Assembly: GCA_963921825.1 (NCBI GenBank)
Contig: OY997596.1
Coordinates: 8,003,001 to 8,067,000 of the forward strand
DNA from: Erodium maritimum
Lineage: Eukaryota > Streptophyta > Magnoliopsida > Geraniales > Geraniaceae
Reading direction: 5' to 3'
DNA length: 64,000 nt
This document shows, piece by piece, positions 8,541 to 60,834 of the stretch (position 1 is the stretch's first letter; each line of letters begins with the position of its first letter). A program made the translations under genes and the position numbers. The notes beneath the pieces are model-generated. The model ran no database searches. It saw nothing but the letters and a program-made list of their open reading frames with translations, and was not told where the DNA came from.

Positions 8541-10325
8541 ACAGTAAACGACTCCTCTCTCTTCTCTTTCCACGCATCGACTTCACCGGAGATCCAAATC
8601 TGTTAATGGGTTATTGGCGGAGGTGACCGTGGCTTTGGGATCCGTCATGATGGCGTTGAATCACGTGTTAACAATTTCGGAAGGTTTTGCTGCTTCCAGG
8701 ACATCAAAATCAAAGCGTAAGATCCGAAAGGGGGTGAAAGAGGATATGAAGCGTGAAGCCGAGACAGTTCCCGTTTCGGATCGTGTCCCTGCTCTTCGTA
8801 TCAAACGGAAGAGGAGGCGAGCTTCGGTTCCGGCACCTTCCGGTTCTATTGTTGCAGCAGGTTCTCATGTTGCAGTACCCATAGTTGCAGGTTCTACTGC
8901 AGGAGGTTCACATGTTGCTGCACCCATTGTTGCAGCTGATATTGGTGCGGTAGGGCCTGTTACAATGTCGTTGAGGGGCTCAGATGTGCATCCGGTAGCA
9001 TCAAAGTTTGGCCGTCGGCATCGGACAGTGAAGACCGACAGGTTTGTTGAACAAGAAGACGAGGTTTTTGTGAATGGCTTGTCGTTCGAATCATCGGAAG
9101 ACTGGACTCGAAATGTGTTCAGTCCTTTTGGTACGATTGTATCCGTTAGCGTTCCTAACGACCGAGCCGAAGCAATCGTTATTTCGATTTTGTTCGTTTC
9201 GATTCAAAGGATGCATCAATGAAGACGATTGAGGTCTTGATCGGGTTTAAGATCGACGATTACATTTTTTTTGTAGCCACAACTTGGCATCGCTGGAACG
9301 ACCCTGATACTCGCTGGCCGGTTTTGAACCAGTTTTGTGCCTCTATTTTTGGGTTGCAGAAATAGAGTACTCGAGGTTTAGTTACACTTGTCTCAGAGAA
9401 GGACGATGTAGAGGATGAAGGGGGAGATCGGTCCGGCGACTCGTCGGAGCAGGTTGCCATCGCCGATGCTGAGACGGTTGCCGTCGTCGGTGCTGAGACG
9501 GTTTCTCCCATGGTTGCCGATGGTGAGATTCAAACGGATGATCTTGCCAGCAACCTTGTTGCGATTTGGTCTCCTGAAATCTCGTTGTTTGAATCATGCG
9601 ATGGCGGTGTGAACCTGGATAGGGATCGTGTTGAAGTTTGTAACGTCGGTGGTGCTGATCAAGTTGTTGGGCCTGAACAAGTTTCAGGCGGGTCTGGGTT
9701 AGCAGTGTTGGGATTTGGTGGGCTTGTTGCTCAAGCCTATCCTACGAATCAGATACTAGCGGCTGGAGGCCCACCTCCTCAGCAGGTGGTGAATTCGTTT
9801 GTTTCTCCTGTTTCGATTGAACCTGTTGTTGTTGGAGCGGGTCAGCCATTACAACAGGTGGCATCTCCGTGGAAGGATGCCCTCGTCACATCGAAGCGGG
9901 TGAGCCGCCCCCTAAGCATTTATCGAAGTTTTATACTTTGACGTGTAAATCAAAGATTTCGGATAGGGAAACGTATATCCGTCCCGTCGACATTGGAAAA
10001 CAGATTGATCAAGGCCGTAATGGAAATACTCAAGTTGCAGCTTTGCCGCAGGTAACCGACGCATGGACTACAATTCGTGAGTTGGCTGCCAAGAAGAAGA
10101 ACACGACGACTAGTCGTTGACTTCGGGAGGCGAGGCTTTGCGGGTTTTTTTTTTTTTGGTCTTGCTTCTTGTTTTCTTTTTGAAAAGGCTAGACCTTTTG
10201 GTTTCACTTGGTGGAGCCCCTCTGTTATTGTTGGTTTTCACCTTGTTTCTTCTTGAATCAGGGCATTCTGTTTTCTTTTCGGAAATCGGTCTTATTAATA
10301 AATATTCGAGCTTATAAAAAAAACA
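8541..10325 (+). mobile_element. ORF1-only LINE-like retroelement A, 13 bp TSD
   Basis: The element is bounded by identical 13-base flanks TCAGCTTTTAGTT at 8528-8540 and 10326-10338 and ends with TTATTAATAAATATTCGAGC and a short A run. That is the signature of target-primed reverse transcription. At 1.8 kb it is complete at both ends yet has no endonuclease or reverse transcriptase. Its only coding content is a decayed ORF1 with an RRM. It sits inside the right LTR of the TRIM-like element. It shares its N-terminal protein motif with element C (31340-33419) and its C-terminal motif and tail with element B (43653-44730). Confidence 0.85.
8605..10120 (+). pseudogene. Decayed RRM-type ORF1 of retroelement A
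   Basis: The frame opens with LLAEVTVALGSVMMALNHVL, closely matching LLVEVLVALGAVVTALNHVL of the intact ORF1 at 31780-33225, then a Lys/Arg-rich region and an RRM beginning DEVFVNGLSFESSEDWTRNV (near 9058). A frameshift near 9175 breaks the RRM; its second half continues in another frame (KTIEVLIGFKIDDYIFFVA). Further on are low-complexity Val/Gly/Ala-rich sequence, the motif SPWKDALVTSKRV (near 9867) and a final DAWTTIRELAAKKKNTTTSR ending at 10120. No in-frame ATG precedes the conserved N-terminal motif. At least two frameshifts and several stops mean it cannot make the full protein. RRM-type ORF1s are known from the plant BNR class of L1 LINEs. Confidence 0.75.
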
Positions 10326-11166: not shown

Positions 11167-13195
11167 ATGATCAGGGTACACCCAATATTCCAGACCCAAG
11201 CGTGTATTATAGATCTCTTAAATTTACTTGGGCAATTTCAAATCTACACTAGAGAGAGAGAGAAAGCCTCCTCTTCTTCCACAGTTCAACAGAAACACAA
11301 GATCATCATTCATAATCTTCCACCCAAACCTGAACCGAGCTGGTTAGAGGGTCTTTTCTGGCATTGTGAAGGGATCATAAAGGTTGAAACTCCTATCAAA
11401 CCTAATGCCAGAGGCATTTGGTTCGCCTTCATCCAATTTGAAAATGATTCTGCTGTGAAAAAAGCCATACAAGAGTTCAATGGCAATTATTGTTCGGGGT
11501 ACAAAGTGTTTGTGGCAAAGGCTTGGGAGAGAGTTGGGGGAATTGGACACAAACCAAGAATCAACAAGGTTTGGAGACAAATTACAGACATTGATTTGGA
11601 AAAGGAGAAAGTATTGTCCAAGGGTTTGATCTGCAACAACTTACTGAAGCTTGGAAATTCTTCTCATCTAGTCATCATTCACAGGAACCTCTAATGTGAA
11701 GCTGTTATGAGAGAGTTTGCAATAGAGGGTGTTTATGATTTGAAGTTGTACCCCATTTCCACTAGGGTGGCTCTCATGCATTGCAAAGACCCTAGCTTTC
11801 AGACTAAAATCCTTAGGGATTCAGAGAACTGGCTGAAGCAATGGCTCACAGTCCTTCCAGATTACAATCAGTTGACTCTACAAGGAGGGTGCTTTCATTG
11901 GATTTCAATTAAAGGCTTTCCAATACAAGGATGGAATGAAGAAACCTTTAAGGCCTGTGTGAATGATTTGGGGCAAATTGTTTATATTCATCCCAAAACC
12001 AAAGATAATTTCCAGGAGGCTTTGCTTCTTATACATTCCAAGCAACTGAAACACTTGGACTTGGAAACAAAAATCATGCTTGAGGAGGAGACTGTCACAG
12101 TTTGGATCACTGAAGTTAACAATACTTCTATTCCAATGATCATTCACCCAAATCTCAGAGAACCCTCTACTGAAGAGGACACTCCACAATTAAACCATCA
12201 AAGGCAAGGCCAGGAAGAGGATATGTCTAGTGAGTTTAGTCTATCTTCAGATGCTTCCCCAATCCTTCAACATTCAGAAGCTCTTGACAGTTTAGGAAGG
12301 GTGGACACAACTCAACATTTGTGCTTATTAGAACAATCAGGAACAGTAACTGAAGGAAATGAAGTTATGGCAGGACAACAAGGAATTAAGGTGGCAGTTA
12401 TTAGGGTGGATGATGCACTGAACTCAAACAAGTCAGACAGAGGATTGTGCATTGAAGATCCTTGGATTCCATTTGCATCTCAGGATCCCATGATTTTGGA
12501 GCAGATTCAAACATTGGTGCCAATCATTGAAGAAACTACTGTACCAACTACCAACATTAAAGTTTCCTTGGCTCAGTTACAATCTCAGTTACACACATAA
12601 GTGATAGGGGAAGTTGGGTCAGATGTGAGATTGGAGGCTACTCAGTCCCAAGAAGCTTTGGCATTGCAAAACATTAATGATAATGTGATTGCTGCAGACA
12701 CCTTTTTCTCTGCCAGCTCTTCTTAGTCACAAGGAACTACAGCCAAGCATTTTTTGGAGGGGACTTTAAAAGAACCTGGTGTCGGCCAAAACACTCCAAA
12801 TAATTTCCAAAGCCCACCACTGTTGCTTAGAAGTGGGAAAGATAGAAGGAAAGTGAACAAAAATCCCTCCACTTACATTTATGCCACAAGATCAAAGGAA
12901 ACTTAAGGCCTCTTCTCCAGTGATTTCTCCTTCCTCAACTGGTTTACAATCAACAGAGAAGAGGATCAGAATTTTTGAAGCTACAGGAAAGGGAACTTGG
13001 GACTATTGTAAAGCCATAGGCTTAAAAGCATTTGGTACTGATGCTGAAGTTGCAGACCAGTTTGAAAATTTAAATGAAGAGCTTCATGGGAGAGCTGTAA
13101 GAGAGGAAACTTCAGACATTGAATTAAATTCAGAGGCTGATGATCAGGAAGAGGGATTGGAGGAACTAGTCTCCAATCACAGTCTACTACAGTGA
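11167..13195 (+). pseudogene. LINE ORF1 (RRM type), broken by stops and a frameshift
   Basis: ORF1 proteins of L1 elements bind the element RNA and accompany it in the ribonucleoprotein. An RRM starts near 11302: RNP2-like IIIHNLP, RNP1-like IWFAFIQFEND, closing with GYKVFVAKAWERV. The frame is interrupted by TAA at 11692-11694, then continues unbroken from 11695 to 12600 (a region containing WISIKGFPIQGWNEETF, like the DUF4283-type segment of plant ORF1s). It meets more stops near 12598, 12724 and 12904 and finishes in another frame up to 13195, seven bases before the ORF2 start. Most lesions are single stops, so decay is recent to moderate. The true start codon is uncertain; 11167 is the first ATG of the frame. 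Confidence 0.8.
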
Positions 13196-13201
13196 TCAGA
13201 G

Positions 13202-16200
13202 ATGAGACTCCTCTCATGGAATGTGAGAGGAGCATCCTCTAACCAAAAGAAGAGGATGATCAAAAATGTTGTAGTAAAGGAGAGGCTAAATATGTTACTT
13301 CTCCAGGAAACAAAGCTAGCACTAATGCCTTTTACATTTATGAAAGCTTGTGGAGGTACTTCTAGTTGGGAATCAGATTTCATAGCTTCTAATGGTTTAT
13401 CTGGGGGTTTATTCTTGGCTTGGGACACAAAAGAATTACAGATGGATAGGGTGTTGAAGAAGGAGAATGTAATTTACTGGTTTGGAAGGATCCTCTCTAT
13501 TGATTTGCAAGTCTGCATCATCAACATTTATGCATTCAACAAGGCTGCTGATAGGAGAAGGCTTTGATCACAAATAAGACAGGAGTGTCTCAATATACAT
13601 GATCCACTAATATGTGCTGGAGATTTTAATGCAACTCTTTTACAGTCAGACAGATCTCAGAACAGCTCTTCTAAGAGAATAAATGATGATTTCAGCTCCT
13701 TTGTTCAGCAAATGCAGTTAATTGATTTACCTCTGGAGGGAGGAAACTTCACCTGGTTTGGCTCCTCAACTACTGCTTCTAGGATTGATAGGATCCTAGT
13801 AAGTCCTATGATACTATTAAAAATGCCAAATGTCTCTCAGAAATGCCTGCATAGGAGTTTATCTGATCACAGGCCACTCTTGCTTGCCACTTCATCAATT
13901 AACTGGGGTCCCAAGCCCTTCAAATTTTGTAATTCTTGGATGGATCATAAGACCTTTTGGAAGGATGTCTCACAATTTTGGGGTTCCATCACTATTTCTG
14001 CGGATCCTCATCACAAGCTTTGGTACAAGTTAAAGGCTTTAAAGGGCTTTCTTATAAATTGGAGGAAGAACACTTTTGGAAGCATTGAAAATGAAATTAT
14101 TGAACTCACTGATACCATCCATTCCCTGGATCAACTACTAGAAGCCAGACCTTTGACAACATTGGAATACAGCCACAGATCTCTCACAACTGCTTTGCTC
14201 ATCCAAAAACTCAAAGCTCAGCTAAAGTTTTTGAGGCAGAAGACAAAACTAAAAATATCTTTTGAGGGGGATAGATGTTCTAAATATTTCCATGTACTGG
14301 CAAACTTAAGACAGAAGAGGAATAAAATTTCCTGCATCATTGAGGAGGATGTTATTTATGAAACTCCATCTGAAATCAAAGCTTGTGCCACAAGGCACTT
14401 CAAAAAGAGATTCCAAAAGGGGGCTGATTCACTACTGGATTTGTCTGTGTTACCCTTTAATAAGATCAGCTCATTTCAAGCTTCTGAATTGGAGAAAGCC
14501 TTTACTGAAGAGGAAGTCAAAGCAGCAGTAATGGATTGTGAGGGCCATAAATCCCCTGGCCCTGATGGTTATTCTATGGCTTTTTTTCAAAAGGGCTGGG
14601 AACTTCTCAAAACAGACATCATGGCATTCTGTGAGCATTTTTATCTATTTGGCTCCTTGGGGAAAGGCATAAATTCCTCCTTCATCACACTCATCCCAAA
14701 AAAGCCATCTCCTCTAGAATTCAATGAATTTAGGCCCATCAGTGTTGTAGGTGCAGCATACAAAATCATCTCAAAAACCTTGGCAGCCAGATTAAAACCT
14801 TTGATGTCTGGTTTGGTTAGTGATGTACAATCTGGCTTTATAGCAGGGAGACAAATTTTAGATGGCACTCTTATAGCAACAGAATTGTTGGATTCCATCA
14901 AAAGATCCAAGGTTGAGGCCACATTAATAAAGGTGGATTTTGATAATGCTTATGACCATGTACATTGGGGTTTCTTGATAAAGTGTTTAACAATTATGGG
15001 ATTTGGTTCAAGGTGGTTGCTCTGGATCAATTGTTGTATCAGAGCTTGGGTGTCTGTTCTCATCAATGGCTCACCATCACAAGATTTCTTAATTACCAGA
15101 GGGCTCACACAAGGGTGTTCTCTTTCTCCACTTCTCTTTACTTTAGTAGCTGAAGGACTACATCAATTACTCAATCAAGGCCAGTCTCTAGGGATGTTCA
15201 AAGGCATTGCAGCAGGTTTAAAAGGTCCATTCATAAGCCACCTACAATTTACAGATGACCTACTTTGCATCCAAGCAGGAACAAATGATTTGATTAACCT
15301 CAAGCATTCTCTCCTTGCATTTCAAAGTGCCTCTGGGTTGAAGATAAATTTTACCAAATCAAAAGCTGTATTACTAAATGCTTGCACAATGGATGAAGGC
15401 ACTGTGGCACAAATCATGAGGTGTGAGATCACTAATCTTCCTATGGATTATTTGGGTTTCCAACTAGGTGCTAACCCCAAGAGGATCAAAACTTGGAGGC
15501 CTATTATTAACAAGTTCAAAAGTAAACTCACTCTTTGGCAATCAAGCATGCTGTCATTTGGTGGGAGGATCACTCTCATCAAGTCAACTTTAAGTGCCAT
15601 ACCTTTGTATCATTTATCTCTATTCAAAGCTCCTGTTGGTGTCATCAAAGAAATGGAGAAATGGATGAGGAGGTTTATGTGGAATGGCAAGGTTACTAGA
15701 AAAGCTCTGCATAAAATTAATTGGGATTTGATTTGTAATCCCAAAGAACAAGGAGGGTTGGGCATTAGGAGAATTAAACTGATGAATGCTTCTCTTCTGG
15801 CAAAGTGGTGGTGGAGGTTTGCATTTGAAGTGGATTCATTATGGAAGAGGGTGGTGTGTGATAAACTTGGTTGGGAGGTGGCAGATTGGGACCTCTCAAC
15901 TATTAATATCACTGATGATCACAGCTTTTTCACACAGTTTAGTGGTTTATTAGAAGAAGAAAGGTTCTGCTCTTCCTTTGGCAACACTGGACTGGAATGG
16001 ACATTAGGAAATGGGGCAAGGATAGACTTTTGGAAGGACCTTTGGCTTGCAGAGGTGCCATTGAAACAAAAATTCCCCAGACTTCATCTACTCAGCACAC
16101 AACACTCAGTCAAGGTGCAAGATTTATGGTTTGAGAATTATTGGTACTTACATTTTAGAAGAGATATCAGAGGTTGGGAATGGGATGAGCTAGCCGAATT

Positions 16201-16861
16201 GGGTGATCTTCTAAATAATCAAGCTGTTTCTAATTTGATACCTGACAAACTGACTTGGAAGGTGTCTCAAAAAGGTTTTAGTGTTCAAGACATGTACAAT
16301 CATATTTCTCCGAGGAGAGAGGAACAACTCTGGAGTAAATTTCTTTGGAAACCCTCTATTCCACCAAAAATCTCAGCTTTTGTTTGGTTAGCTTGTTGGG
16401 GAGCTATCCCAACAAAACTGTACCTTGAGGCTAGGGGAGTCCCAATATCACTAGCAGAATCATTCTGCCCATTTTGCACAGGACTGTTTGAAGACATTCA
16501 ACATCTCTTCACTGATTGTTAGAGATCTTGGAGGATTTGGGGGGCTGTCTTGAATTGGTGGAAGGTACACGGGTGTGTTCAAAGAAGGATTACTGATAAT
16601 ATTACTTCTTGGAATTTTTTACATAGAAGAAATAAGGCTTGGAAGAACATCTACTACATTTTCCTGTGGGAAACTTGGCTGGCAAGGAACAAAATGGTTT
16701 TCCAAGGCAGTTATATCACTACTTCAGAGGTATTACTTGCAGTTCAACACTCCTCTTATACAATTGAGTGGTCACATTTCAACAAGAATTTATCCTTCTC
16801 CTTTAATCAGTGGCAATTGGCACCTTATCAGTGTTTGAGAGTTAGAAGAAAGGTTACTTGA
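13202..16861 (+). pseudogene. LINE ORF2: endonuclease / reverse transcriptase / zf-RVT, two in-frame stops
   Basis: One frame of about 1,220 codons spans the whole protein with stops only at 13565 (TGA) and 16520 (TAG). Visible parts in order: an apurinic-type endonuclease (LLSWNVRGASS, LLLQETKLA, CAGDFNATL, SLSDHRPLL); the reverse transcriptase (FRPISVVGAAYKIISKTLA, IKVDFDNAYDHVHWGFL, GLTQGCSLSPLLFTLVAEGL); the zf-RVT domain near the end (KPSIPPKISAFVWLACWGAI) and LARNKMVFQG. The catalytic box reads LQFTDDLLC, where plant L1s usually have F/YADD; the two aspartates remain but the alanine is threonine. ORF2 nicks the target and copies the RNA at the nick. The TGA lies at a former CGA-like site and may be a simple C-to-T change. 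Confidence 0.92.
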
Positions 16862-17607
16862 CACTTGTTTTGTTTTGGGGGTGAGTTGGGAGGGGAGGTT
16901 GGAGGGAGGGTTTGGGGACTGAGTGGGTGAGAGGTGAGGACATCCTTGGGGTTTTTATTGTTGTTTGAGCTTTATGCTCCTCTTGCACTTCCTTGAGAGT
17001 GGATAGTTTAGGCCTTTCTATTTGTTTTTCTGAGTTCCTGAGAGTGGGTAGACCTATTTAGGTGGAGGGTTTTTTGTTTTTCTTTGTTCTTTTTTGCAGG
17101 CTGGCTTTGGGGCTACTATACTCCTTTTGCAGTCCACATTTTGGCTGGATCTTGCCCTTAGTCTGGTCTTGATGCAGAGCATCATTCTGTTTGCATTTTG
17201 GTTTGAAGAATATGTGGCTGGTACTGGCAGCAATCTTGAAGCAGAAGCAAAGCAAAGCAAAGCAAACCTTAATTTCCATCTTCTGCACAAGTTGGGGAGA
17301 TGTTTAGTTATCATCTTTTGCACATTCTGGGGAGATGATTTTTAAACAATTACATGGGGTTTGAGTTTTAGGTTGACACATAGAAACTAATGTTTGTTGA
17401 AATTCATTCAAAGCTTTAGAACTATAGTGTTTGGGGGCTCTGGTAACTGGTTTTGGGGAACCGGGTATTAGAAACTCAACTTTAGTGTTAGGGTCTCTCT
17501 TGGTTGATTAAGGATTGGTTTGTATTGTGGGGGATTTAACTCCTCCTTTCTCTTGTTTCATTCTCTGAAACATTAGAACACTAATAAAATTCATTTGCCT
17601 CTTCAAA

Positions 17608-17921
17608 AAAAGATAGGATGTTCAATATTGGGACATGGGCTCTCTCAGCGGAAGAGGGGCGGTGTTGCACGGCAAGGACAGAGACGGCCAATCTAGATTG
17701 GGTCCGTTCCCCCGTGATAGATATGGATGTTCGTGGTATGATTGGACGGTGCATGACTAGACGAGTGACAAAGAATATGTTTGGTGATGATGGTGGGTGG
17801 GTAGTCATGGTGGCCGGAGGCTGACTGCAATAATTCGATAATATGGAGAGAGCAGGAGATTTAAAAAAAAAACTAACGGTAGAATTGATTATGAATTGAA
17901 TTCTCATAATATTATGCAAAT
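17608..17921. other. Unassigned stretch between LINE and inverted repeat
   Basis: Starts directly after the LINE A run. Short open frames exist on both strands (plus 17618-17824, minus 17581-17919), without recognisable domains. The right part is AT-rich. Nothing further can be supported. Confidence 0.4.
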
Positions 17922-25437: not shown

Positions 25438-26673
25438 GTGGTGCACCTCCTTTCCTGCTATAGCAACAGGTACTTGGCGGCGTCTTCCCTAGCCATCAGA
25501 TGGATCGTGTCTGTAGCAGAGGAGCCGGAGACAGACCGATCAAAGTGGCCCTGCACATTTTTCCAGCCCATCCGCCTAACCGAAGACGGAGATGAGTACC
25601 GGTTCAGGCAAGTGTACACAGGGAACTTCGTCGTGCTGATGAACTTACCGGGTCAGCCCCAGCACAATTGCCTACTTCCAGGATGGGGGACTCCGGAATC
25701 GGATCAAGACGTGATCACTGTCATCGACTGGAGCTCCCTGGTGGTCCTTCCCCAATTCGTCTCGTTCAAAGGGGACAATGACAATTACCTCAGCGCGGAG
25801 GTGATCTCCCGGCGCAATCACCTGCAGTTTGCAACGCCTGACAGCGCGCACCAAACAGCGGGGCACGAGGTGTTCCGCAACCGGGATGGAAGCATCCGGC
25901 TCAAGTCCACCCATTTCGGTCTGTTCTGGAAGGGTAGTCCCAACTGGATTTTGGCCGACTCAAACGACACCACTACCAACGACAGAGCCACCCTCTTTTG
26001 GCCCATCAAGATCGACCACAACACCATCGCCCTCCGCATGTTGGGGAACGACCATTTCTGCAAGAGGTTCACCGATGCGGGGATGACCAGCTGTCTCAGC
26101 GCTGTTTCCCCCACTATTGACCTACATGCCCGACTCCAAGTCACGGAGCTTGTTATTGGGAGAGACATCTACAATGTCGAGTTTCATCTAGACCGTGCTA
26201 GGAAATACAACGAGCAAGTAGTCACTATGGGAACCGGGGGCGCCGCCAATTCCACCGACCACGACGGCACTCTGGACGTCAGAGTGGAGCGCAGTGAGAC
26301 CAGGAGCACCAGCTGGAGTACTAGTGTTTCTTTGACGATCGGTGTCAAGACTACATTTGTGACTCGAGTTCCTTTCCTTTTTGAAGGCAAGATTGACGTT
26401 TCAACCGAAGTTTCAACGACGCAGGAATGGGGTCAAACCGAAGAGATCACAAATAAAATCCAGGTAGTCTACACCGCTTTCGTGCCGCCGATGAACAAAG
26501 TCACGGTTTCAGCCATAGGGACAACGGCCACGTGTGATGTTCCTTTCTCCTACACTCAAACTAATACCTATGTGGATGGGACGAAACGTACTTTCGGGAT
26601 GGACGATGGCCTCTACACCGGAATCAATTCTTACAATGTGTCTTATCAAATCAACAACGAAGACTTGAAGTGA
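25438..26673 (+). pseudogene. Amaranthin-like lectin with aerolysin-type domain, N-terminus missing
   Basis: The open frame covers 411 codons, collinear with residues about 62-472 of the complete lectin at 29589-31007. Present: most of the first agglutinin domain (from VHLLSCYSNRYLAAS), the second agglutinin domain (GSIRLKSTHFGLFWKGSPNW, TLFWPIKIDHNTIALRML), and the whole aerolysin/ETX-MTX2-type domain (DIYNVEFHLDRARKYNEQVV to GMDDGLYTGINSYNVSY). The frame has no internal stop and ends properly, but it has no ATG at its start; the first codon is GTG after an in-frame TGA, and the next in-frame ATG is about 65 codons in. Either a first exon was lost, perhaps with the Harbinger insertion nearby, or a distant 5' exon exists. 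Agglutinin domains bind carbohydrate; aerolysin-type domains can form pores. It converges on the second lectin, 2.9 kb away. Confidence 0.8.
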
Positions 26674-29588: not shown

Positions 29589-31007
29589 TTATATCTTTTC
29601 TTGCTTGATTTCGTATATGACCTTGAAAGTGTTGATTCCGGTGTACACGCCGTCGTCCATGTTGTAAGTACGTTTTGTTCCATCCATGAGGGTGTCGGTT
29701 TGAGTGTAAGAGTAGGGAACATCACAGGTGGCGGTAGTTCCTGTAGCAGAAACGGTTACCTTGGTCATGGGCGGCACTAAAGCCTTATACACGGTCTCAA
29801 TAGTATTGGTCTTTATATCAGCTTCACCCCATTGGTAGCCGGTGGTAAGCTCAGCTGAAATTTCAATCTTCCCCTCGGCAACAAAAGGAACTTTGGACAC
29901 CAATGTAGTCTTGACCCCCAACTTGAAAGAAACACTAGCGTTCCAAGTGCTGCTCTTGGTCTTGGTGTGCGCCACTTTGACGTCCATGGAGTTTTCCTTG
30001 TCGGTGGTATTGGAGGCTTGTCCTGTGCCCATCACGGTCACATGCTTGTTGTACCTCCTTGCGCGCGCCAGATGAAATTGGACATTGTAGATGTCTTTTG
30101 AAAGAGTAAGGTCTGAAACTTGGAATCGGGCTTGTTTGGAAATAGACGAGGCAGAGGCATTAAGACCGATCTTTCCGTCTGCGTCGAGCATTTGGCAGTA
30201 TTTGTCGTTGGCCAGACAACGGAGGGCGACGGTGTTGTCGTCAACCTTGACGGGCCAGAAGTTGGTGTCTTTGGAGTCGGTGCCAGTGTAATCTGAGTCG
30301 CACCAAATCCAATTGGGACTACGCCTCCAGAATTTGCCGTAATGGGTTGACTTGAGTCGAATGCTTCCGTCTGGGTTGGGGAACACCTCATGCGCTACCT
30401 TTGCGTCTCCGAGGTCAGATGTTTTGAAAACCAGGTAAGGATCAAATAAGTTGGTTGGCAACACCGGAATGTGTAGCCCGCCGAGATAATTGCCACCGTC
30501 CCCTTTGAACGCCACGCGCGGGGGCAATAGGACGAGGGACGTCCAGTCGATGGCATTGAACGTCTCGTGTAGAAATGAATCAGAATGGCCAGAACTTACG
30601 AGTATGCAATTGTTTTTGGGATTATCATCTCCCGCATTCATCAACCTGGGCCAAAACCCGGTGTTCATGTGCGTGAACATGTATTCACCTTGTTCACCCA
30701 TGGGAGAGGGCCAGAGCAATGTGCAGGACCATTTGGAATGGTCTTCGTCAGGCTTGTCGGCTTCCGACACAAGCCAACGTTGTGTTTGGTTAGATGCCAC
30801 CAAGTACTTGTTATTGTAGCAGCATCGGAGGTGCACCCGGTTGGGGTTACTCTCTGCCACTTGCACTTGAAACTTGGACAGTGGGCTGTGAACATCCTCA
30901 CCCGTGAACCGGACATGCCCCTGGAGATGCCCTTCCTTCACGTACTCCAAGTACTTGCTGTTGTATTTGGATTTCAGCACCACATACATCGGCAATGATG
31001 ATGCCAT
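29589..31007 (-). CDS. Amaranthin-like lectin fused to an aerolysin-type domain
   Basis: An uninterrupted 472-codon frame. I chose the ATG at 31007 (MASSLPMYVVLKSKYNSKYL) rather than the in-frame ATG at 31031, because the lectin homology starts there. Domain order: agglutinin (amaranthin) domain about residues 5-150, second agglutinin domain about 155-300 (VAFKGDGGNYLG, GSIRLKSTHYGKFWRRSPNW), aerolysin/ETX-MTX2-type domain about 305-472 (DIYNVQFHLARARRYNKHV, a Ser/Thr-rich amphipathic stretch, GTTATCDVPYSYTQTDTLMD, DDGVYTGINTFKVIYEI). No signal peptide or membrane helix is evident, so a cytosolic or nucleocytoplasmic protein is likely. Related two-domain plant proteins, such as Hfr-2 of wheat, respond to insect feeding; that is family knowledge, not shown here. 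The coding region is intronless. Its promoter is truncated by the CACTA element 170 bases upstream. Confidence 0.9.
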   Translation of the reverse strand: MASSLPMYVVLKSKYNSKYLEYVKEGHLQGHVRFTGEDVHSPLSKFQVQVAESNPNRVHLRCCYNNKYLVASNQTQRWLVSEADKPDEDHSKWSCTLLWPSPMGEQGEYMFTHMNTGFWPRLMNAGDDNPKNNCILVSSGHSDSFLHETFNAIDWTSLVLLPPRVAFKGDGGNYLGGLHIPVLPTNLFDPYLVFKTSDLGDAKVAHEVFPNPDGSIRLKSTHYGKFWRRSPNWIWCDSDYTGTDSKDTNFWPVKVDDNTVALRCLANDKYCQMLDADGKIGLNASASSISKQARFQVSDLTLSKDIYNVQFHLARARRYNKHVTVMGTGQASNTTDKENSMDVKVAHTKTKSSTWNASVSFKLGVKTTLVSKVPFVAEGKIEISAELTTGYQWGEADIKTNTIETVYKALVPPMTKVTVSATGTTATCDVPYSYTQTDTLMDGTKRTYNMDDGVYTGINTFKVIYEIKQEKI

Positions 31008-31084
31008 TCTTATAATATATTCTCTTACCAATGCAATTGATTTTACTACAATTGCTCGTCTTTTCCTTAACCTTGTCTCTTATG

Positions 31085-31093: not shown

Positions 31094-31339
31094 CATATCC
31101 ACCACCCTTCCACTCCATTCACTATATGTTGATTATATCCACAAAAACATAATATTATATATTTCTTTTATCAATTCGACACTACACCAAACTGCTACAA
31201 AAGCGACTGAGCTTAAGTTTCTCAGTCCCTATTGAGGACAAAAGCGACTGACCAAAAATCTCAGTCGCTATGGACGGGAAAAGCGACTAGGCTTAATAAG
31301 CTAAGTCGTCATTCATCTCGGCGACTAAGAATTGAACTT

Positions 31340-33419
31340 ATAAGTTTAAGTTTCTACCAGAGGCACCCCTGTGTGTTGCCAGCCCTAGGGAACGCGCATC
31401 CCCACGCGCCCCCTTGCGATTCGTTCTCGGCACATCGTCGTTCGCCGGAGTCGAAGACAGAGCCGCTGAAGCAGAGTCGGCACACCGTCTCCTTTGTTGA
31501 TCATAGCCGGAGTTGAAAACGGAGCCGCTGAGATTCGTTTCGCCTGAGATAGTTGTTCCTCGTCGGCGAACTTTGGGTCTGGAAGCAGAGTCGTCGTCGA
31601 CTCTCAGGGGTGGAACCGTGCGAGACAGGGCATCAAGACCAGCCAGGTTTCCTCTTCTCCGTTCAGATCAGGAACTTCATCTTCTGTGTCGTCCCGGATT
31701 GTTCTGTGATTGTGTGTCCCAGTTGCTGATGTGATTGTGTGTCCCAGTTGCTGAATTTGGGTTCAATTATAAGGACTGTATGGCTCCTTCACTCTCGACA
31801 CCGCGTCTTCTCCGGAGAGCTCAACCAGTCACTGATTTATTGGTGGAGGTGCTTGTGGCGCTAGGTGCTGTAGTGACGGCGCTAAACCACGTCTTGACGA
31901 TTTCGGAGTCGATTGATCGATCAAGGCATCATGGCAAGCATCCGGCCAAAGCGAAGGCGAGTAGTGATGCTCGAAAGAAGAAGGTTCAAGCCAAGGTCCG
32001 TCGATCGGCCAAACCAAAGTCGGGGGCGGCTGAGCCTGTGAAGAAGCCCGGCCATGCTCCAGTAGATGACGTCGAGCGGAAAGGGATCAAAGGGAAGGCT
32101 GTTGCTCCAGTGAAGACGAAAGGGAAGGTTCAGACCATGAAGAAGGCTGCCATGGACGTGCCTCGGAGCTCTGTTTTGGAACATGGGTTTCGTTTGCAAG
32201 AAGATGAAGTTTTCATCTGTCACCTACCTTCAGATGCCAAACCTGATTGGGTTCTTAACGTTTTCGGCGAATTTGGGAAGATATTGACTTCCCCTGTTCT
32301 GATTCGGAAAAATCGAAAACGTAGTCTCTTCTATTTTGTGCGGTTCAGCTCTCCAGTTGAAGCAAAACAGGCCATCGCCAGCTTAAATGGGATAAAAATC
32401 AATGGTTCTACCCTCCTGGTAGCAGTCGCTCGACGTCGGAAGCTTGTGCCGGCAAAACAGAGCAACCGGGTTCCTGTTACAGCTCCGGCGGCCGAAGACG
32501 AACCTGCAGTTTGCGGGTCCGATTCTCTCTCTTCGAATCCCTTGAATCACGGTCTGGTGACCTCTGATTTGAATTCTGATTTGAATTCAATCTCGGATGC
32601 GCGATTGGGGGAAGATGGAGCTGTTACGCGAGGTTTGGGGGCTTTAGTCGCGAGGTCAGATTCGCGTGACGGCTCGCGCGAAGAAGATGACTCCTCTGGG
32701 TCTGTTCTTAGGCCAGTTAGCTCTGACGTTGGGTCTGAGCTTAAGGGAAAGAGCCCAAGCCCGTCTGTTCTTCAACCAGGTGCAGATTCAGAGGTAGTTA
32801 GTTCTGCTCTTGGGCCTGTGGTCCAACCTGTTCAGCCACAGTCTGGGCCCGCAGGTGGGCCTGCGTCTGGCCCACTTGTGCGCTTGGGGATCACTTTTGC
32901 ACGCCCCCTTGCTTCTTGTTCTGATTTGGTGAAGAATGTTCTCCCAAAGTCGAACTCTCGGGATTCACCGACTCTCTCCCTTAATCCGTTGTCATGTTTC
33001 GATCAAGACTTTCCAGCGTGGTCTCCTGAAACGATACAGAAGGATAAAGGGAAAAGAAGAAAGAAACCCTGCCAACCTTTTCGAGTGACGACTCGTTCAC
33101 TTTGCATGAGTGAAAAGAAGAAGCTTGAAGCTCAGCGTAAAAACGAGGCTTGGAGACATTTTGTCGATACAGGGACTATGCTGCAGATAGAGTTCAAGGA
33201 CGAAGTTCCTCCTTCTATTGATTAGCATTTTCTTTGTAATTGACTGTTGTTCCCCATGCTTCGTCTGTTTTTCTTTTTCGTTTTTTAGGAAGATTCTCTT
33301 ACTGGTGTAGTAGAGTATCTTTTGCAGGTATTTGGGATAGCTTTTTGCGGTCCCCAGGCTTTGTAATTCTCTTTATTTCAAAGCCTTTTAATAAAACATC
33401 ATTTATCAACAAAAAAAAA
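31340..33419 (+). mobile_element. ORF1-only LINE-like retroelement C, 2080 bp, 13 bp TSD
   Basis: Flanked by AAGAATTGAACTT at 31327-31339 and 33420-33432 and ending with TTTTAATAAAACATCATTTA and an A run at 33410-33420. It inserted into the left subterminal array of the CACTA element, whose repeats resume directly after it. Between a 440-base GC-rich 5' leader and a 190-base 3' UTR there is one intact ORF1 (31780-33225) and no endonuclease or reverse transcriptase. The complete duplication and intact frame show a fairly recent full-length insertion rather than a 5'-truncated LINE. Confidence 0.9.
31780..33225 (+). CDS. Intact RRM-type ORF1 protein of retroelement C
   Basis: 481 codons from the first ATG (MAPSLSTPRLLRRAQPVTD). 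Parts in order: a conserved N-terminal helix-like motif LLVEVLVALGAVVTALNHVL (residues about 22-41); a Lys/Arg/Ala-rich linker (about 45-130) able to bind nucleic acid; an RRM at about 145-220 with RNP2 VFICHLP and RNP1-like RSLFYFVRF; a Ser/Gly/Pro-rich middle; a basic C-terminus (KDKGKRRKKPCQPFRVTTRS, EKKKLEAQRKNEAWRHFVD). ORF1 proteins with an RRM are known from the BNR type of plant L1; the role is RNA binding in the retrotransposition complex. Here no ORF2 follows, so reverse transcription must come from another element. The N-terminal motif is shared with the decayed copy at 8605-9222; I do not know it from characterised proteins. Confidence 0.82.
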   Translation: MAPSLSTPRLLRRAQPVTDLLVEVLVALGAVVTALNHVLTISESIDRSRHHGKHPAKAKASSDARKKKVQAKVRRSAKPKSGAAEPVKKPGHAPVDDVERKGIKGKAVAPVKTKGKVQTMKKAAMDVPRSSVLEHGFRLQEDEVFICHLPSDAKPDWVLNVFGEFGKILTSPVLIRKNRKRSLFYFVRFSSPVEAKQAIASLNGIKINGSTLLVAVARRRKLVPAKQSNRVPVTAPAAEDEPAVCGSDSLSSNPLNHGLVTSDLNSDLNSISDARLGEDGAVTRGLGALVARSDSRDGSREEDDSSGSVLRPVSSDVGSELKGKSPSPSVLQPGADSEVVSSALGPVVQPVQPQSGPAGGPASGPLVRLGITFARPLASCSDLVKNVLPKSNSRDSPTLSLNPLSCFDQDFPAWSPETIQKDKGKRRKKPCQPFRVTTRSLCMSEKKKLEAQRKNEAWRHFVDTGTMLQIEFKDEVPPSID

Positions 33420-33432
33420 AAGAATTGAACTT

Positions 33433-42899: not shown

Positions 42900-45452
42900 A
42901 CCACGTAATAGTGGAGACAAACCCGGCGGCACCCTAGCAGTCTGCGCCCAAGTCGTGGCATACCCTTTATCCTTCCGGTACTTGGGATAATGCTTCAATG
43001 ACTTGTCAAAAGTATGGATGCCCGACATCTCCCTGTCACAGGCTGGGGCGGATGTCCTATACACCCATAATTTCCACAGAAACCCGGCATCTTGACATAT
43101 GTAAGAGAGTAGGTGATCGGGTCCTTGAACTCAGGAAACCTGAGGCGCATATTTTGACACAGAGGTCGGTCAAGGAAGTGCCAGTAGCGGACCTTCACCG
43201 TCCCCCCTAGCACTGGCCGAATTCATCGCAAGGAACGTCCACCGTCCCACCTAACGCCTCCCCAATCCTAGTGCCCGTAGTCTTAGTGCTAACTATCTGA
43301 AGGATACCATGGGCATGGACCCAAAGTTGCATCTTGTCCATGGCCGGAAGGTCCTGGATGAACGGATCCGTCTCCGCCAGCATCAAGGGTTTACCGTCGA
43401 AACACCATGGTTCATTCAGCCGAACCCAATCCCTATCCTCCTTCCTGGCAAAATAAAACCCAAAGACTCCAGGAGAGGCGTCCTTTATGACCAACCCAAT
43501 AGCCGATTTGCCCCATTTATTGGTGAGGATCCGAATGAGGGTATCTCAACGAGGTTGAACATCCGTGAGTAGATGACCCACCATCCCATATTGTTGGCGG
43601 AAAAGTGTATTCGGATCAAGCACCCCGTTCACGAACGTAACTTCCAAGGGTTTCCCAGAAATAGAGCCATTTGTTGGCTGATTTTGTTCCTGCGAAAGTT
43701 CAACATACAACGACTGTGGAGGTGAGCTCGCCGGTGCTGTTGCAGGGGATTGAAGAGGCGGCATCAGACCTTCCCGGGGACTCCTCGGAGGCGGCTGTTC
43801 ACGTCGCTGTCGAGTCTCATGGGGTTTCAAATTCAACATCTGAGTTTGTTTGTGATTCTAAAAATATGGTAGCACCAGAATCCGGTGATTACGCTAGAGT
43901 TGGGGATTTTAATTCGGATTCAGCTAATCACGCTGTCAAGTTTTCTTCCGGAGATCGCGTTACAATGGCGGACGTTGATGACGGCGTGTGTCGCGATACT
44001 GGGCTTCCTTCAGATTGGCTTGGTTCGACCACGCCAGCCAAGGACGAGAATGTTTCTCGTTCGTGCGATTCCAGAACGCGTGCTCTTCTTGGGGAGGAGG
44101 ACAATGGCGCTAGACCGGATGGGCTGAGTGGACCGGACGGGCTGAGTGGACCAACACAGTTAGTGGTGGTTGGGCCCGAACCTTGACATGTACAAGCAGA
44201 CCAATCCAGCACAAGATCAGTTAGAGTTTTGACTGAAGCTGTTGAAACATCTGTACAGCATGTGGCATCTCCGTGGAAAGATGCGCTCGTACATTCAAAA
44301 CGTGTGATCCTTCCCCCTAAGCACCTGACGGAAATTTATAACATAAGGTGTGTAAACGGAAGGTCTCGGATCGACAAAGGTGCGTCTGTCCTATCGATAT
44401 TGGGAAACAGGTTGAGCAAGTCCGAAATGGAAAAACTCAAGTCATAGCTCCGTCTCATGGTACCGATGCATGGACTACAATTCGTGAGTTGGCTTCCAAG
44501 AAGAAGGTTGCGACGACTCGTCGTTGAATTCGGAAGGCAGGGATTGGCGGGGTTTTCTCTATTTTGACTCCTTGTTTTTTCGTTTCTTAGAAAAGGCTTG
44601 GCCTTTTGGCTCCCGTTAGTGAAGCCCTTTTGTAATCGTTGGTTCTCACCCTACTTCTTCTAGAAGCGGGGCTTTCTGATTCCTTTTTGGAATCAGTCTT
44701 ACTAATAAATTTTCGAGCTTGTTAAAAAAAACTTTGAAGGGTTCCTCGAACCCCAGGGAGCAACCCGAGAAACTGTGTTGAAGAGCCTGAAGAGGGCTAT
44801 CATGATTCATTATTGGAGGGTGGGATGAGGACGGGAAGGTTGAGGCTGGTCCGCTGCCGGCCCTGTCATCGGGGGCTTCCCCATCTGGACAGGTGGGGTG
44901 TGATCAGCCAACGGGAAAACGAGGGCCTCACCATTCGCCGACCTCAATCCTTCCGCCATCTACAACCGGTGGCCCTCCAAAACCCTAGCCGAACGCTGAG
45001 GGGATGGTACAATGCTCGCCTATTTCGAAGGACGGACTAGGCGCGCATGAGGTGGCTTCGACAACGGAGAATGATCCCCCGGTGCATAGGCTACCAGTGG
45101 TAGCATCAAAGGAGGATCTGAGGGCGAGGGCAGCAGCGAGTCCCGGGGCAGAGTCGACGGCGCGTCGACACCTTCTTCTTCCGCAGTGCCCGCTTAGGCC
45201 GCACAACGTCATGCGATAGACAAGGGGGAGGGCGTTCCTCGTTCCCGCACCCACGCCAGCGGCTAATGGGGCAAGGTCCCTCGCGATCACGCCCACGCCA
45301 GCGGCTAAAGGGACAGGACCCAAGGCGAGGACCTTCGGAGAGGCAGGCCGAGAGGGTGGGTTGGACATGGGAGGGGACAAAGAGGGAGACGTTGGTGGAG
45401 AGACAGAGCACGCGGCTTGGTCAATAAAGAACGCAAAGATCCAGGAACACAT
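42900..45452 (-). pseudogene. Decayed DUF4283/zinc-knuckle ORF1 of element D
   Basis: On the minus strand: a Pro/Ala-rich N-terminus near 45452-44985 (MCSWIFAFFIDQAACSVSPP), an interruption by element B (44730-43653), then the DUF4283-type core (KPLEVTFVNGVLDPNTLFRQ, FGFYFARKEDRDWVRLNEPW, DKMQLWVHAHGI) and a knuckle region (KVRYWHFLDRPLC, YVKMPGFCGNYGCIGH). The core spans several frames, so it is dead. Knuckle ORF1s of plant LINEs bind the element RNA. The plus-strand fragment at 53440-54046 is a homologue (DQLQLWVYARGVP, YTKIPTFCFIYGRIGH). Confidence 0.75.
43653..44730 (+). mobile_element. ORF1-only retroelement B, 5'-truncated, nested in D
   Basis: Flanked by ACTTCCAAGGGTT (43640-43652) and ACTTTGAAGGGTT (44731-44743), a 13-base duplication with two differences. 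On the minus strand these flanks join the host ORF1 before and after the insertion. The tail is CTTACTAATAAATTTTCGAG then an A run at 44724-44730. Coding remains (43671-44186, then 44229-44527) include HVASPWKDALVHSKRV and end DAWTTIRELASKKKVATTRR, the same as element A. It lacks the N-terminal motif and the RRM because of truncation. Confidence 0.82.
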
Positions 45453-53099: not shown

Positions 53100-54046
53100 A
53101 ACCCACAATTGCCTCTTCCTCGCTGCCTACGACCGTCTCCTTCTCTCATCCTCTTCCCATCGACGGGTCTGCTCCCATCCTCCCAGTACAACGGGATCAT
53201 GTAGGAGGGAAAGCTCCGGTTGACGATTCCCTGAAGTCGTCCTTGGAACTTTTGGGTGTAGGCCTAACACTTCCTAACGTGGATAGGATTCCGCTCATCC
53301 CCTCTCCTTATCGTCCCTGTTCTAATGGCCCGTGGTCACAAGGTGGTCCAACCCTCAGAGGGAACCCTATAACCCTCGGAGGGAACCCTATAACCCTCAT
53401 CGCCGGCTTCGCCGGATCTACTGTCCTCCATGGCGTGTCTTCAAGATAGTCTCTCTCCTTTGTCTCTTTAGATTGATGAGGAAGTGGAAGTTTTGTCATG
53501 TACTCTTTGGTCAACCCCTCGGTCCTCACGCGTCAACAGTTCGGGATGGTGCGCAAGTTATGGGCACCGAAACCTCCCCGGAAGGACGTACTCCTCTGTA
53601 TTAGCACCACTACGTGCAGGCGGTCCGCGGAGGGCTTGTTCATCAAAGATATCAGTCTAGGCGGTCCGCGGAGGGTAATGAACCATGATGCTTTGGACCA
53701 ACTACAGCTTTGGGTCTATGCCCGCGGTGTTCCGGCTTTGGTTCGGACAAAAGCTCCAGAGGAGAAGATTGGCGCGATATTGGGAGCTTGTATGGAATTC
53801 CCCTGCGAACAGTAGGGGATGTGTCGGGGATGAGTTGTGAGGGTGCGATTTTGGCAACTTGTGGAACACCCTCTCCGGCGTGGGATTCTGATGTGCTTCA
53901 AGAAATTCCTGGACCGCGTGAGGGTCGAGCTGACATATACAAAGATCCCAACGTTCTGCTTCATTTATGGGAGGATCGGTCATGTAGATTGGGAGTGCGA
54001 TCTGGAGCTACGGGGTACCCCGAGGTATGATACCTCTATTCTATAA
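53100..54046 (+). pseudogene. DUF4283/zinc-knuckle ORF1-type LINE fragment
   Basis: A Ser/Pro-rich leader region (53100-53440), then pieces in shifting frames: LVNPSVLTRQQFGMVRKLWA, DQLQLWVYARGVPALVRTKA, GAILGACMEFPCEQ, VRVRFWQLVEHPL and YTKIPTFCFIYGRIGH (the knuckle). These are collinear with the ORF1 of element D on the other strand (VLDPNTLFRQQYGMV, DKMQLWVHAHGI, YVKMPGFCGNYGCIGH). It is cut at 54046 by the Gypsy insertion; its 3' end is not in the window, so it is unknown whether it had an ORF2. Confidence 0.75.
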
Positions 54047-56654
54047 TGTCACGCCCCGAATTCGGTAGGACCGAACCCGGAACGCGAACGGTGAAACAAT
54101 AAAACAATTTTCAATTTTTTTTAATAAACCTCTTTAAATCAACACTTCGGTTAAACGAAAACAATATTTTACAACTGAAAAGCGTCCAAAACAAGCGGAC
54201 AAAAACCGACATGTACGTCGCTAGACTCCCCAAAACCCGGACTCCCGCTCCCAGCTCTTCAAGCTTCGAGGGCTCTCCTAGTCCGTCTCACGACCAGTAC
54301 CTGTAGGAAAAGTAGCAGGGGTGAGCATTTCGCTCACCACCATGGATACCGGGTTGACCACGGCATACCAGCAGAAATACCGGGAACCCGACCACAACAA
54401 CCCCGGGGACTACTACCCCAAAAACACGATTTAGACTAACGGTCACGCAAACACTATTAAACTTTCCCAACCAACTCAAAACCCGGACACGTAATGTAGA
54501 CCCGACACAGCGGTTACGACCTCAAGCCAAAACGCAAATAATAACCACGCAACACCCAAGATCACAAAGGATCGCACACAACAATCAAGATCGCAAAGGA
54601 TTGCACTCCAGCTACTCAGTGCCGGTTGCTAAGCTGTTGGGCTTGAGCCTGCCCCACGCAACTTTCCCCGACACGCAGTCGGGCCAGGCGGTCGACTTGT
54701 TCGCGACATATACATCAATACTTTTCCGATAGCTAGTCGGAAAAGGAGCCGTCCTTCATCGCAGAAGAAATGCACAACTTTACCGACGGTTAGTCGAAAG
54801 GCTAGCCAACCCTCACGCGCGCGAGCCCGTGGCACCCCTTTTCTGTCAGGCGGGCCCCAACCTCCATGCAATCACATTCATCACACAAGGTTCAACAAAT
54901 AGCGACTGTAAGAACCACTCCCAGTCAACGCCAGTCAAATCTGCGAAAAACAGGAAAATTTAAAAATTTTGGACGGACACTTAAATGAACCCAAATTTGA
55001 CCCCGAGGGTCATACCGGACTTAAGTTGACTCCGATATCGACCAAAGTGAGTTCCGGAGGACTCAGGGCAACTTTCTGACCAATTTGGGAAATGTTGACT
55101 TTTCGCTGGAAAAGTCAACCGAGCGACGTTTTGGTCCATTCGAGGACCGTTTTGGATCCAAAAAGCTTAGACGTCGTCCCATCGGCCTTAGTTGAGCCGT
55201 TTCCTTGTAGCCCGTGAAGTTTTGTAAATTCTTGGAAAAAGTGCCCGTTCGGGGCCCGAGATGGCCGAATTTCGCGAATCTGATTGGAAAATATCTAGAA
55301 GATATTTACAAAAAGGGTTGGGACCCACTTGCCACATGTCACCAATGTGGTGGTGTTAGGTTTATTGGACAAAACAAGACATGACTACTTGAGGGTTAGT
55401 TTGCTTTTTAAGTATTATTTTGTTACTTTTTAAAACAAAACAAAAGGGAAGACATTGGTGTGTTCAACCATGTTGTTCAAAAAGAGAGAAAATTAGACTT
55501 TTAAAGAGAGAAAAGAAGAGAGAAGAAAGGGAGAGAAAAAGAGAAGGGGTGTTGTGGTTTTGTGACTTTTCCCGATCATCAAGCCGTTGGATCGTCTCAA
55601 AGATAGAAGAATCGAGTTCACACCGTCATTCTCTACGGTGAGCACCTAACCGATTTTCGTTTTGTTAAGTTCGAATTTTAGGGTTTGAGTTTAAACGATT
55701 CAAATATGGTTGGGGTTTGGTTAGAATTGGTTTAAAGATGAATGGTTGAGGTTTGGAGTTCGTTAGGAACGTTTTGGGGCAAAAAGGGAATTTTGCCATT
55801 GTAGCCGTGTGGGGCCCACATGCTCGGGTATCGGGTTTTCGTGTTCGGGAGGTTTAGAACGTTCCCCAAGTAATTAATCCACACCCAGATCGAAATTTGG
55901 AATTAAATTGTGAAAGTTGTAATTGACGGGTTTAGAAACTTTAAACGCGAATTAAATCGCTCGGAAGTCGGAATTTGATTCCGTCGATTGCGTTGGAACC
56001 CTTGAATTATTCTAAGACCGTAGAAACGAAAATGGGAATTTTCGGAGCACCGGAAGGGCGTTTCCAAAACCCGGGCAGATTCGCCATGTCGGGCGAAACG
56101 GGCTTTTCCGAGCCCATTATTGACAATGTCGAGTAATTGAGAAGTTTGGGAGTGATCGAAATTGTCGGGGTTGCATTTAGGCGTTTAATTCTTTAAATTT
56201 GGGTTTCGCATGCTTACTTAAAAGGTGTGTTAATTGTAATGATTGTAGACCGTGTTGCCTACCGTGGAAATAGGAGGCTAAGCGGGAATTATGGAGCTTT
56301 GTCGAAGTAAGAGTATCGGGTTGACACGCTTCAAGAGGAAGGGAAAAGTAGCCGGATCTCGGCCATGACTAGGGAAAGTTAACAGTAGAAATGCATGTGA
56401 CACTTGGGTGTCGTGGGTTTAGTAAGTTTATCGAATATTAGAAAGGCGGGCGACACCGGGTGGTGTCGTGTGATTCGGGAACGTATCGAACATTAGAATT
56501 GCATGTGACACTTAGTAGTATCGTAGGAGCAGAGAACTTATCGTTATTAGAATTACTGGAGGCATATGACCATGCCCGGAGGTTGATTGTGAGTCTGTTG
56601 ATATTAGAATTGCTGGAGGCATTGGTTATGCCCGGAGGTTGATTGTGTAGTTGT

Positions 56655-57165
56655 GTCTTGGGTGGCCATTAGAGCCCGTGTTTTACTGTTGGTGTCTTGG
56701 GTGGCCATGAGAGCCCGTGTTTTACTGTTGGTGTCTTGGGTGGCCATGAGAGCCCGTGTTTTACTGTTGGTGTCTTGGGAGGCCGTGAGTGCCCGTGGGG
56801 TTGTTGAGTCCGTGAGTTACTGTAGGTGTGTCTTGGGAGGCCGTGAGTGCCCGTGGGGTTGTTGAGCCCGTGAGTTACTGTTGGTGTGTCTTGGGAGGCC
56901 GTGAGTGCCCGTGTGGTTGTTGAGCCCGTGAGTTACTGTTGGTGTGTCTTGGGTGGCGTGAGTGCCCGTGGGGTTGTTGAGCCCGTGAGTTAGTGTCGGT
57001 GTGTCTTGGGTGGCCGTGAGTGCCCGTGGGGTTGTTGAGCCCGTGAGTTACTGTTGGTGTGTCTTGGGTGGCCGTGAGTGCCCGTGGGGTTGTTGAGCCC
57101 GTGAGTTAGTGTCGGTGTGTCTTGGGTGGCCATGAGTGCCTGTGGAGTGTTGAACCTGTGTTGTT
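56655..57165. repeat. Minisatellite in nested solo LTR (40 and 57 bp units)
   Basis: Three units of about 43 bases (GTCTTGGGTGGCCATGAGAG, CCCGTGTTTTACTGTTG) pass into about seven units of about 57 bases that add GGGGTTGTTGAGCCCGTGAG. The longer unit is an extended version of the shorter one. The frames it opens (for example 56653-56865) are not genes. Confidence 0.88.
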
Positions 57166-57206
57166 GCTGTTTGTTGAACTTGCTTGTGATTGTGATTGTG
57201 GTTACC

Positions 57207-57715
57207 TGAGTGAGAGAGGTTACTGAGACAGGTCGACCGTCTGGCCTGACAAGGATCGGCAAAGCGCGTGAGTGAGAGAGGTTACTGAGACAGGTCGACC
57301 GCCTGGCCTGACATGGATCGGCAAAGCGCGTGAGTGAGAGAGGTTACTGAGACAGGTCGTCCGCCTGGCCTGACAGGGATCGACAAAGCGCGTGAGTGAG
57401 AGAGGTTACTAAGACAGGTCGACCGCCTGGCCTGACAGGGATCGGCAAAGCGCGTGAGTGAGAGAGGTTACTAAGACAGGTCGACCGCCTGGCCTGACAG
57501 GGATCGGTAAAGCGCGTGAGTGAGAGAGGTTACTGAGACAGGTCGACCGCCTGGCCTGACAGGGATCGGCAAAGCGCGTGAATGATAGAGGTTACTGAGA
57601 CAGGTCGACCGCCTGGCCTGACAGGGATCGGCAAAGCGCGTGAATGATAGAGGTTACTGAGACAGGTCGACCGCCTGGCCTGACAGGGATCGGCAAAGCG
57701 CGTGAGTGAGAGGGG
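57207..57715. repeat. Minisatellite of about 60 bp, eight copies
   Basis: The unit is GTGAGTGAGAGAGGTTACTG, AGACAGGTCGACCGCCTGGC and CTGACAGGGATCGGCAAAGC, with few differences between copies. It directly follows the previous array. The host LTR has different arrays at the corresponding place. Confidence 0.9.
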
Positions 57716-58600: not shown

Positions 58601-58654
58601 ACCCTCATAAACACAACAAGTTACTTAACCTACGGGCACCACTAAGTGCCCACA

Positions 58655-60816: not shown

Positions 60817-60834
60817 ATCTACCCCCCTTAAAGG
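60817..60834 (-). other. Gypsy polypurine tract
   Basis: On the minus strand CCTTTAAGGGGGGTAGAT stands directly before the LTR start TGTAAAG. This is the usual primer site for plus-strand DNA synthesis and fixes the orientation of the element. Confidence 0.82.

Follow-up and report, generated by a model that had tools for sequence, protein, structure and literature searches.

Element C, a 2.07-kb insertion in the genome of Erodium maritimum, very probably belongs, as a complete copy, to a family of non-autonomous non-LTR retroelements, of which the sole gene encodes an ORF1-type RNA-binding protein. It lies in a 64,000-nt stretch of DNA (hereafter the window, to which all coordinates refer) and was first delimited at 31340-33419. 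The plan of the family comprises a 5' UTR, ORF1, a 3' UTR of about 185 nt, an A tail and target duplications, and many independent insertions repeat it, ORF2 being absent. Judged by its anatomy the family is HAL1-like: an ORF1-only family, apparently mobilised by LINEs, and a functional plant counterpart of the mammalian HAL1 elements.

Anatomy of element C and of its relatives in the window

The features of C and of two related elements, A and B, are collected in the table. A preliminary description of this DNA, made from the sequence, had credited C with a 13-bp duplication, an A tail and a 481-codon ORF1 with an RRM, and with neither an endonuclease nor a reverse transcriptase. All these features were recovered. 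The duplication of C scores 13; among 342 mismatched flank pairs, which served as control, the 99th percentile is 10 and the maximum 13. The tail is part of an eleven-A run (33411-33421), 3' of the AATAAA at 33390. The longest ORF among 1000 first-order Markov sequences built from C has 247 codons, against 481 in C itself. A Pfam search of C reports no domain besides RRM_1 above the cut-off, endonuclease and reverse transcriptase being absent, and ORF2 has no space in the element because the distance from the ORF1 stop to the tail is 185 nt. In the AlphaFold2 model of the ORF1 protein, computed from the single sequence, an N-terminal helix (within residues 15-51) is predicted with confidence, and strands and helices follow each other as in an RRM; the remainder is mostly unordered, and confidence is low outside the N-terminal helix (mean pLDDT 41).

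Table. Features of elements C, A and B in the window
Feature	Position	Strand	Remarks
C: 5' target-site duplication, AAGAATTGAACTT	31327..31339	+	Exact 13-bp repeat of 33420-33432
C: copy-specific filler, from target duplication to shared 5' end	31340..31377	+	Upstream sequence unrelated in the four furthest-reaching leader relatives
C: GC-rich 5' UTR, common to other ORF1-only elements	31378..31779	+	Leader matches at 9 other places
C: ORF1, 481 codons	31780..33225	+	N-terminal helix, basic linker, RRM (144-212), low-complexity middle, conserved C-terminal block
C: RRM coding region, residues 144-212	32209..32415	+	Pfam RRM_1, E=1e-10
C: 3' UTR with two hairpins, AATAAA and, at its end, CATCATTTATCAAC	33226..33410	+	3'-end alignment
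C: A tail	33411..33419	+	Run extends two bases into the duplication
C: 3' target-site duplication	33420..33432	+	Exact 13-bp match to 31327-31339
A: decayed ORF1-only relative	8541..10323	+	C-like N-terminus, different C-terminus; tail TTCGAGCTTAT(A)n; 13-bp duplication TCAGCTTTTAGTT
B: 5'-truncated relative of A	43653..44731 (about)	+	Duplication with 2 mismatches; boundaries and duplication read from the flanks

The 3' limit first assigned to C stands, but the 5' limit has to be moved inwards. The leader matches of L053 and L054 (L numbers designate loci of the host assembly) begin at position 38 of C, that of L052 at 42 and that of L050 at 43; the shared 5' end of C therefore lies at about 31378, and the preceding bases are filler. 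The aligned 5' boundary is GCCGGCCCTAGGGAAC-like in L050, L052, L053 and L054; the boundary at 31378 is GCCGGCCC-like. The possibility that the whole leader of C is foreign sequence was rejected, since the leader matches other element copies.

Element A shares with C its N-terminal motif (70% over 121 bp; 34.5% in protein residues 4-173). Element B matches A at 75% over 476 bp, an alignment spanning the ORF1 stop and the 3' UTR, and both elements have about 200 nt of 3' UTR between the ORF1 stop and the A tail. The locus L053 has the C-terminus and tail of the A/B type, yet the 5' UTR start of the C type. As it mixes the leader of C with the tail of A/B, the two groups have a common 5' UTR start.

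Recurrence of the ORF1-only plan across the genome

Searches of the host assembly (763 Mb) returned at least 45 matches at the DNA level (from 40 scored of 761 candidates) and at least 133 matches with the ORF1 protein (from 89 scored of 9121 candidates), and the family numbers at least tens of copies. We examined 38 loci (20 + 8 + 10), which were chosen by the position of ORF1. The tail motif was found 132-178 nt 3' of the ORF1 stop in 36 of them, and this layout is also kept in groups only 40-50% identical to C in protein. In the first 29 loci (C included), 26 exhibit a run of at least six A at 145-188 nt past the stop. With two ORF2 queries, none of the 38 loci gave a match between the ORF1 stop and the tail. 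Where ORF2 matches do occur (L017, L027, L028 and L035), they are located outside the element and, except in L028, on the opposite strand. The two exceptions to the tail motif are L019, in which the 3' UTR ends abruptly, and L038, in which similarity is lost shortly before the stop; about 4.5 kb of additional downstream sequence of L038 gave no ORF2 match. An ORF of at least 430 codons extending to the C-terminus was present in 15 of the 38 loci, a share that is biased upward because these loci are mostly better-scoring matches.

An ORF2 regularly placed between stop and tail in the relatives, which in the preliminary description would have made C a simple deletion derivative, is thus not what the 38 loci contain. 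The same description had argued that C is complete at its 5' side and that its lack of ORF2 is consequently not truncation. This conclusion holds, since the same layout in other copies excludes a one-off deletion; the reasoning itself is weak, because a 5' truncation cannot remove a downstream ORF2. Copies having both ends in common and no ORF2, the other expectation, were also found. L035 and L040, when extended upstream, align over 2250 bp at 98% identity, the alignment running from a 5' end common to both as far as the tail, with a GC-rich 5' UTR of 614 nt, unrelated flanks, and duplications of 13 bp (exact, L040) and 17 bp (two mismatches, L035). The 5' end of C, for its part, is common to four other copies. 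L029 and L030, over 389 aligned nt, have 97% identity. With such near identity, in L035/L040 at different sites, some insertion was recent.

When the leader of C served as query and each of the 10 candidates was scored, 14 matches resulted, C itself included, with 9 places besides C. Six of the nine places were examined (L050-L055); all encode ORF1 relatives, and none exhibits an ORF2 match. Their tails are of the C type in L050 and L051 only and of the A/B type in L053; no tail motif was seen in L052 and L055. The relatives recovered with the element, ORF1 and leader queries do not include any L1 in which a closely related ORF1 precedes an ORF2; an autonomous parent may nonetheless exist in this genome.

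Target duplications were tested in 19 of 22 copies (L009-L028, C and A). By the control given above, 11 score at least 11 and 9 at least 13. Exact duplications of 14-16 bp occur in three of eight further copies, and of 12-17 bp in three of the four testable copies from nine additional ones. Outside this genome, none of 7991 scored candidates from a large public database of uncertain plant content matched the ORF1 protein at E<=0.001, and scans of viral and prokaryote contigs gave no relative. Among the titles returned by searches of the open-licence literature, none describes a plant ORF1-only family.

Constraint on ORF1, mosaic copies and 5' junctions

The dN/dS of C against 20 loci ranges from 0.22 to 0.65, which fits the selection on the protein proposed in the preliminary description. 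The ratio is 0.17-0.48 in the RRM (computable in 16 of 20 comparisons, 15 of them at or below 0.36 and L009 at 0.48), 0.27-0.66 in the C-terminus and 0.46-1.21 in the middle region (17 computable). In the N-terminus of C the constraint is weak, because its closest matches, L016 and L018, give 0.80 and 0.87. The close pair L010/L011 exhibits a dN/dS of 1.03. The dS of C is 1.7 against L027 and 2.1 against L028. We read this pattern as the result of purifying selection in the source lineages, which is most stringent on the RRM, with the neutral decay of single copies superimposed.

Windowed identities along C and the identities of the separate modules are sharply discordant. Compared with L016 and L018, C is 92% and 91% identical in the N-terminus, 48% in the RRM and 76% in the C-terminus; with L017 the corresponding values are 81%, 89% and 65%, and with L026 the RRM is at 54% and the C-terminus at 91%. 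The N-terminal, RRM and C-terminal modules are, to judge by these identities, shuffled among copies. This is the pattern expected from template switching between element RNAs, which may have taken place in the course of target-primed reverse transcription; alternatively, the mosaics may stem from gene conversion among the copies. The N-terminal motif quoted in the preliminary description is present in C, but the family has several N-termini that can replace one another, of which this is one; what the copies have in common is the C-terminus.

These data bear on explanations other than a mobile ORF1-only family. C and its relatives might be internal-deletion or splicing products of a two-ORF L1 that still makes them, as the alignment of the C RRM with the RRM of the window L1 ORF1 (28%, E=1e-8) and the likeness of the 3' ends to those of some L1s could suggest. 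We find this quite unlikely given the same stop-to-tail layout in 36 of the 38 loci, the groups with just 40-50% protein identity to C included, the ORF1-only layout also seen in the A/B group despite its distinct 3' UTR, and the full-length pair L035/L040 with both ends in common. Processed retrocopies of host RRM genes made by L1 (retrogenes or pseudogenes) would likewise carry A tails, duplications and an RRM like that of host genes. Such an origin is very unlikely for copies that are many, that have common 5' and 3' ends including the hairpin tail, that have exchanged N-terminal modules between groups, and that retain intact ORFs at the very high dS of L027 and L028 though each copy is an insertion.

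Finally, C might belong to the family and nevertheless owe its open frame to chance survival or host domestication, not to mobility. One intact copy proves nothing, and parts of the protein are near neutral; on the other side stand the long ORFs of 15 loci, with the upward bias of that share, and the nearly identical pairs L029/L030 and L035/L040 (the latter at different sites), which speak for some recent insertion, though not necessarily that of C. This explanation appears unlikely.

Many copies start exactly at the ATG and not in a UTR (e.g. L010-L015, L024 and L025), with upstream sequences that differ from copy to copy. In pairs 92-97% identical from the ATG on, the upstream similarity is not above control; L035 and L040 are an exception because both carry a real UTR. 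Eight of the 11 copies with a MLSPAT-type N-terminus start at the ATG, and L019, L020 and L021 slightly inside it. Copy-specific filler lies between the duplication and the element in 18 of the 19 duplication-bounded copies measured, a count taken without L024 (weak duplication, 287 nt off) and to be read with the caveats that the duplication of L010 scores only 10 and that the start of L026 has no anchoring relative. The filler is 38 nt long in C, 18 and 48 nt in L035 and L040, about 15 nt in A, about 52, 10 and 180 nt in L039, L042 and L045, and 11-105 nt in eleven other copies; L028 has none. By eye, filler is also seen in L053 and L054.

Filler at plant T-DNA junctions arises by end joining, and the fillers described here can be read in the same way, although no template was found for them. 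They are of interest for the question of how a LINE insertion is closed at its second end in plants. Several other origins of the leaders were considered and rejected. Inversions or copies of the own flank are not indicated, the longest exact matches being no longer than in shuffles except for a 15-mer in L026; host exons spliced onto the ATG would be expected to leave an AG, of which no clear excess was read in the last leader bases; and an inherited 5' transduction does not agree with close copies having no common upstream sequence. As for a 5' ribozyme, Rfam gave one sub-threshold match on ten loci (C included), which is not a ribozyme. By eye, the elements in L020 and L029 begin 12 nt inside ORF1, and at the junction the sequence joined on their upstream side provides a new in-frame ATG.

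3' ends, candidate helpers and comparison with known elements

The alignment of 28 3' ends exhibits two hairpins, AATAAA and CATCATTTATC. In 11 of the 28 sequences both sides of four hairpin pairs are altered; as these 11 are related, a single event may account for the covariation, and the consensus fold has little stability overall (-4.4 kcal/mol). Of the six non-LTR 3' ends of the window, five (not that of A) have a perfect stem, 7 bp or longer, immediately 5' of the signal, versus 13 of 111 control sites. At the L028 locus, the 3' end of an ORF2-bearing L1 carries TTCATCGCTTATC(A)n. The 3' end at position 3423 resembles that of C better than all but 3 of 18084 sequence windows, and it probably belongs to the same L1 as a zf-RVT frame that precedes it by 1.4 kb. 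For the L1 ending at 17605, similarity to the end of C is hardly above chance, 204 of 2000 shuffles being as good. Outside C-type 3' UTRs, at least 10 of the 13 bases of the tail motif occur at 4 of 648 A-runs, in three places. The L1s with similar tails, at 3423 and in L028, are suggested as the best helper candidates.

Two further elements were noted on inspection. The L1 at 11167-17612 has an RRM frame, a weak DUF4283 frame (below the cut-off) and an RT/zf-RVT frame, and its ORF1 appears split. The reverse strand of L022 (about 2049-4251 of the reversed locus) carries a decayed element with RRM- and DUF4283-like ORF1 fragments, read from the translation; its tail, TCATCGCTTATG(A)n, is less than 0.8 kb from the last ORF1 fragment, and it is possibly a second kind of ORF1-only element.

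From the duplications, the A tail and the 3'-end similarity, we infer mobilisation in trans by L1 ORF2p. The element RNA would be transcribed from the 5' UTR, and the ORF1 protein would multimerise through its N-terminal helix and coat RNA through the RRM, with a preference for its own. The L1 ORF2 protein would then reverse transcribe this RNP at a nicked target (TPRT) by way of the 3' hairpin, CATCATTTATC and the A tail, and template switching between element RNAs would yield the mosaic ORFs. A fuller picture, of which we judge the chances a little short of even, would have these elements be self-sustaining plant RNA satellites: they would make their own RNP protein, borrow the L1 reverse transcriptase through the 3' hairpin tail, shuffle modules by template switching across groups with different tails, and exhibit two discrete 5' ends (the UTR start and the start codon) with templated 5' filler as in plant end joining.

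HAL1, of which the original paper is reportedly that of Bao and Jurka in 2010, is the standard case of an element that kept ORF1 and gave up its own enzyme, and it uses L1 ORF2p in trans. To our knowledge HAL1 is known only from mammals. Like C, HAL1 is non-autonomous and encodes only ORF1p, and the present family encodes ORF1p without endonuclease or reverse transcriptase in multiple copies with common 5' and 3' ends. It differs from HAL1 in its plant host, in another ORF1 architecture, in several N-termini on one C-terminal block, and in that its descent from an L1 is putative. The half-L1 likeness advanced in the preliminary description thus holds for the ORF1-only plan; for descent from a known L1, the one line of evidence is the RRM similarity to the window L1. 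A plant family with this plan, intact proteins and recent copies offers a tractable system for the role of ORF1p towards its own RNA and for the payoff of losing ORF2.

SINEs are short and non-coding, with a head derived from a small RNA; C, with its 2.07 kb, its 481-codon ORF and the single sub-threshold Rfam match, is not of this class. Neither does it have the ORF2 with endonuclease and reverse transcriptase of an autonomous plant L1, as seen from the stop-to-tail layout and the absence of ORF2 matches in the 38 loci. C also lacks the DUF4283-like part that the window's own L1 possesses.

BNR-type plant L1s (Heitkam and Schmidt 2009, via PMC3747384) are a LINE family with an RRM in ORF1, a feature common to C, which unlike them is without ORF2. 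Sadhu elements of Arabidopsis (PMC2848041) are described as non-autonomous, with poly(A), duplications of 7-16 bp, presumed LINE mobilisation and divergent subfamilies, but they are about 900 bp long with no conserved open reading frame, in contrast to the ORF of C with its dN/dS below one; C is not a Sadhu element on that description. In plant L1/SINE pairs (Ohshima, PMC3747384), LINE and parasite have a 3' stem-loop in common, with CGAG 3' of the stem. The A/B group also has this CGAG, whereas the C group ends in CATCATTTATC instead, and the parasites of those pairs are non-coding SINEs whereas the C family codes for a protein. Modular, reticulate ORF1 evolution is described for Jockey-superfamily LINEs (PMC4120745), which as a rule have two ORFs; the C family is from a plant and ORF1-only. 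The Boea OAR1 retroelement was rejected as a relative, being a cluster of LTR elements and unrelated.

The window contains other features. Two agglutinin genes with aerolysin-like parts lie on the 5' side of C, at 25438-26673 (+) and 29589-31031 (-), the aerolysin match of the first being below the cut-off. At 54000-60900, large imperfect inverted repeats surround tandem repeats of about 55-62 bp.
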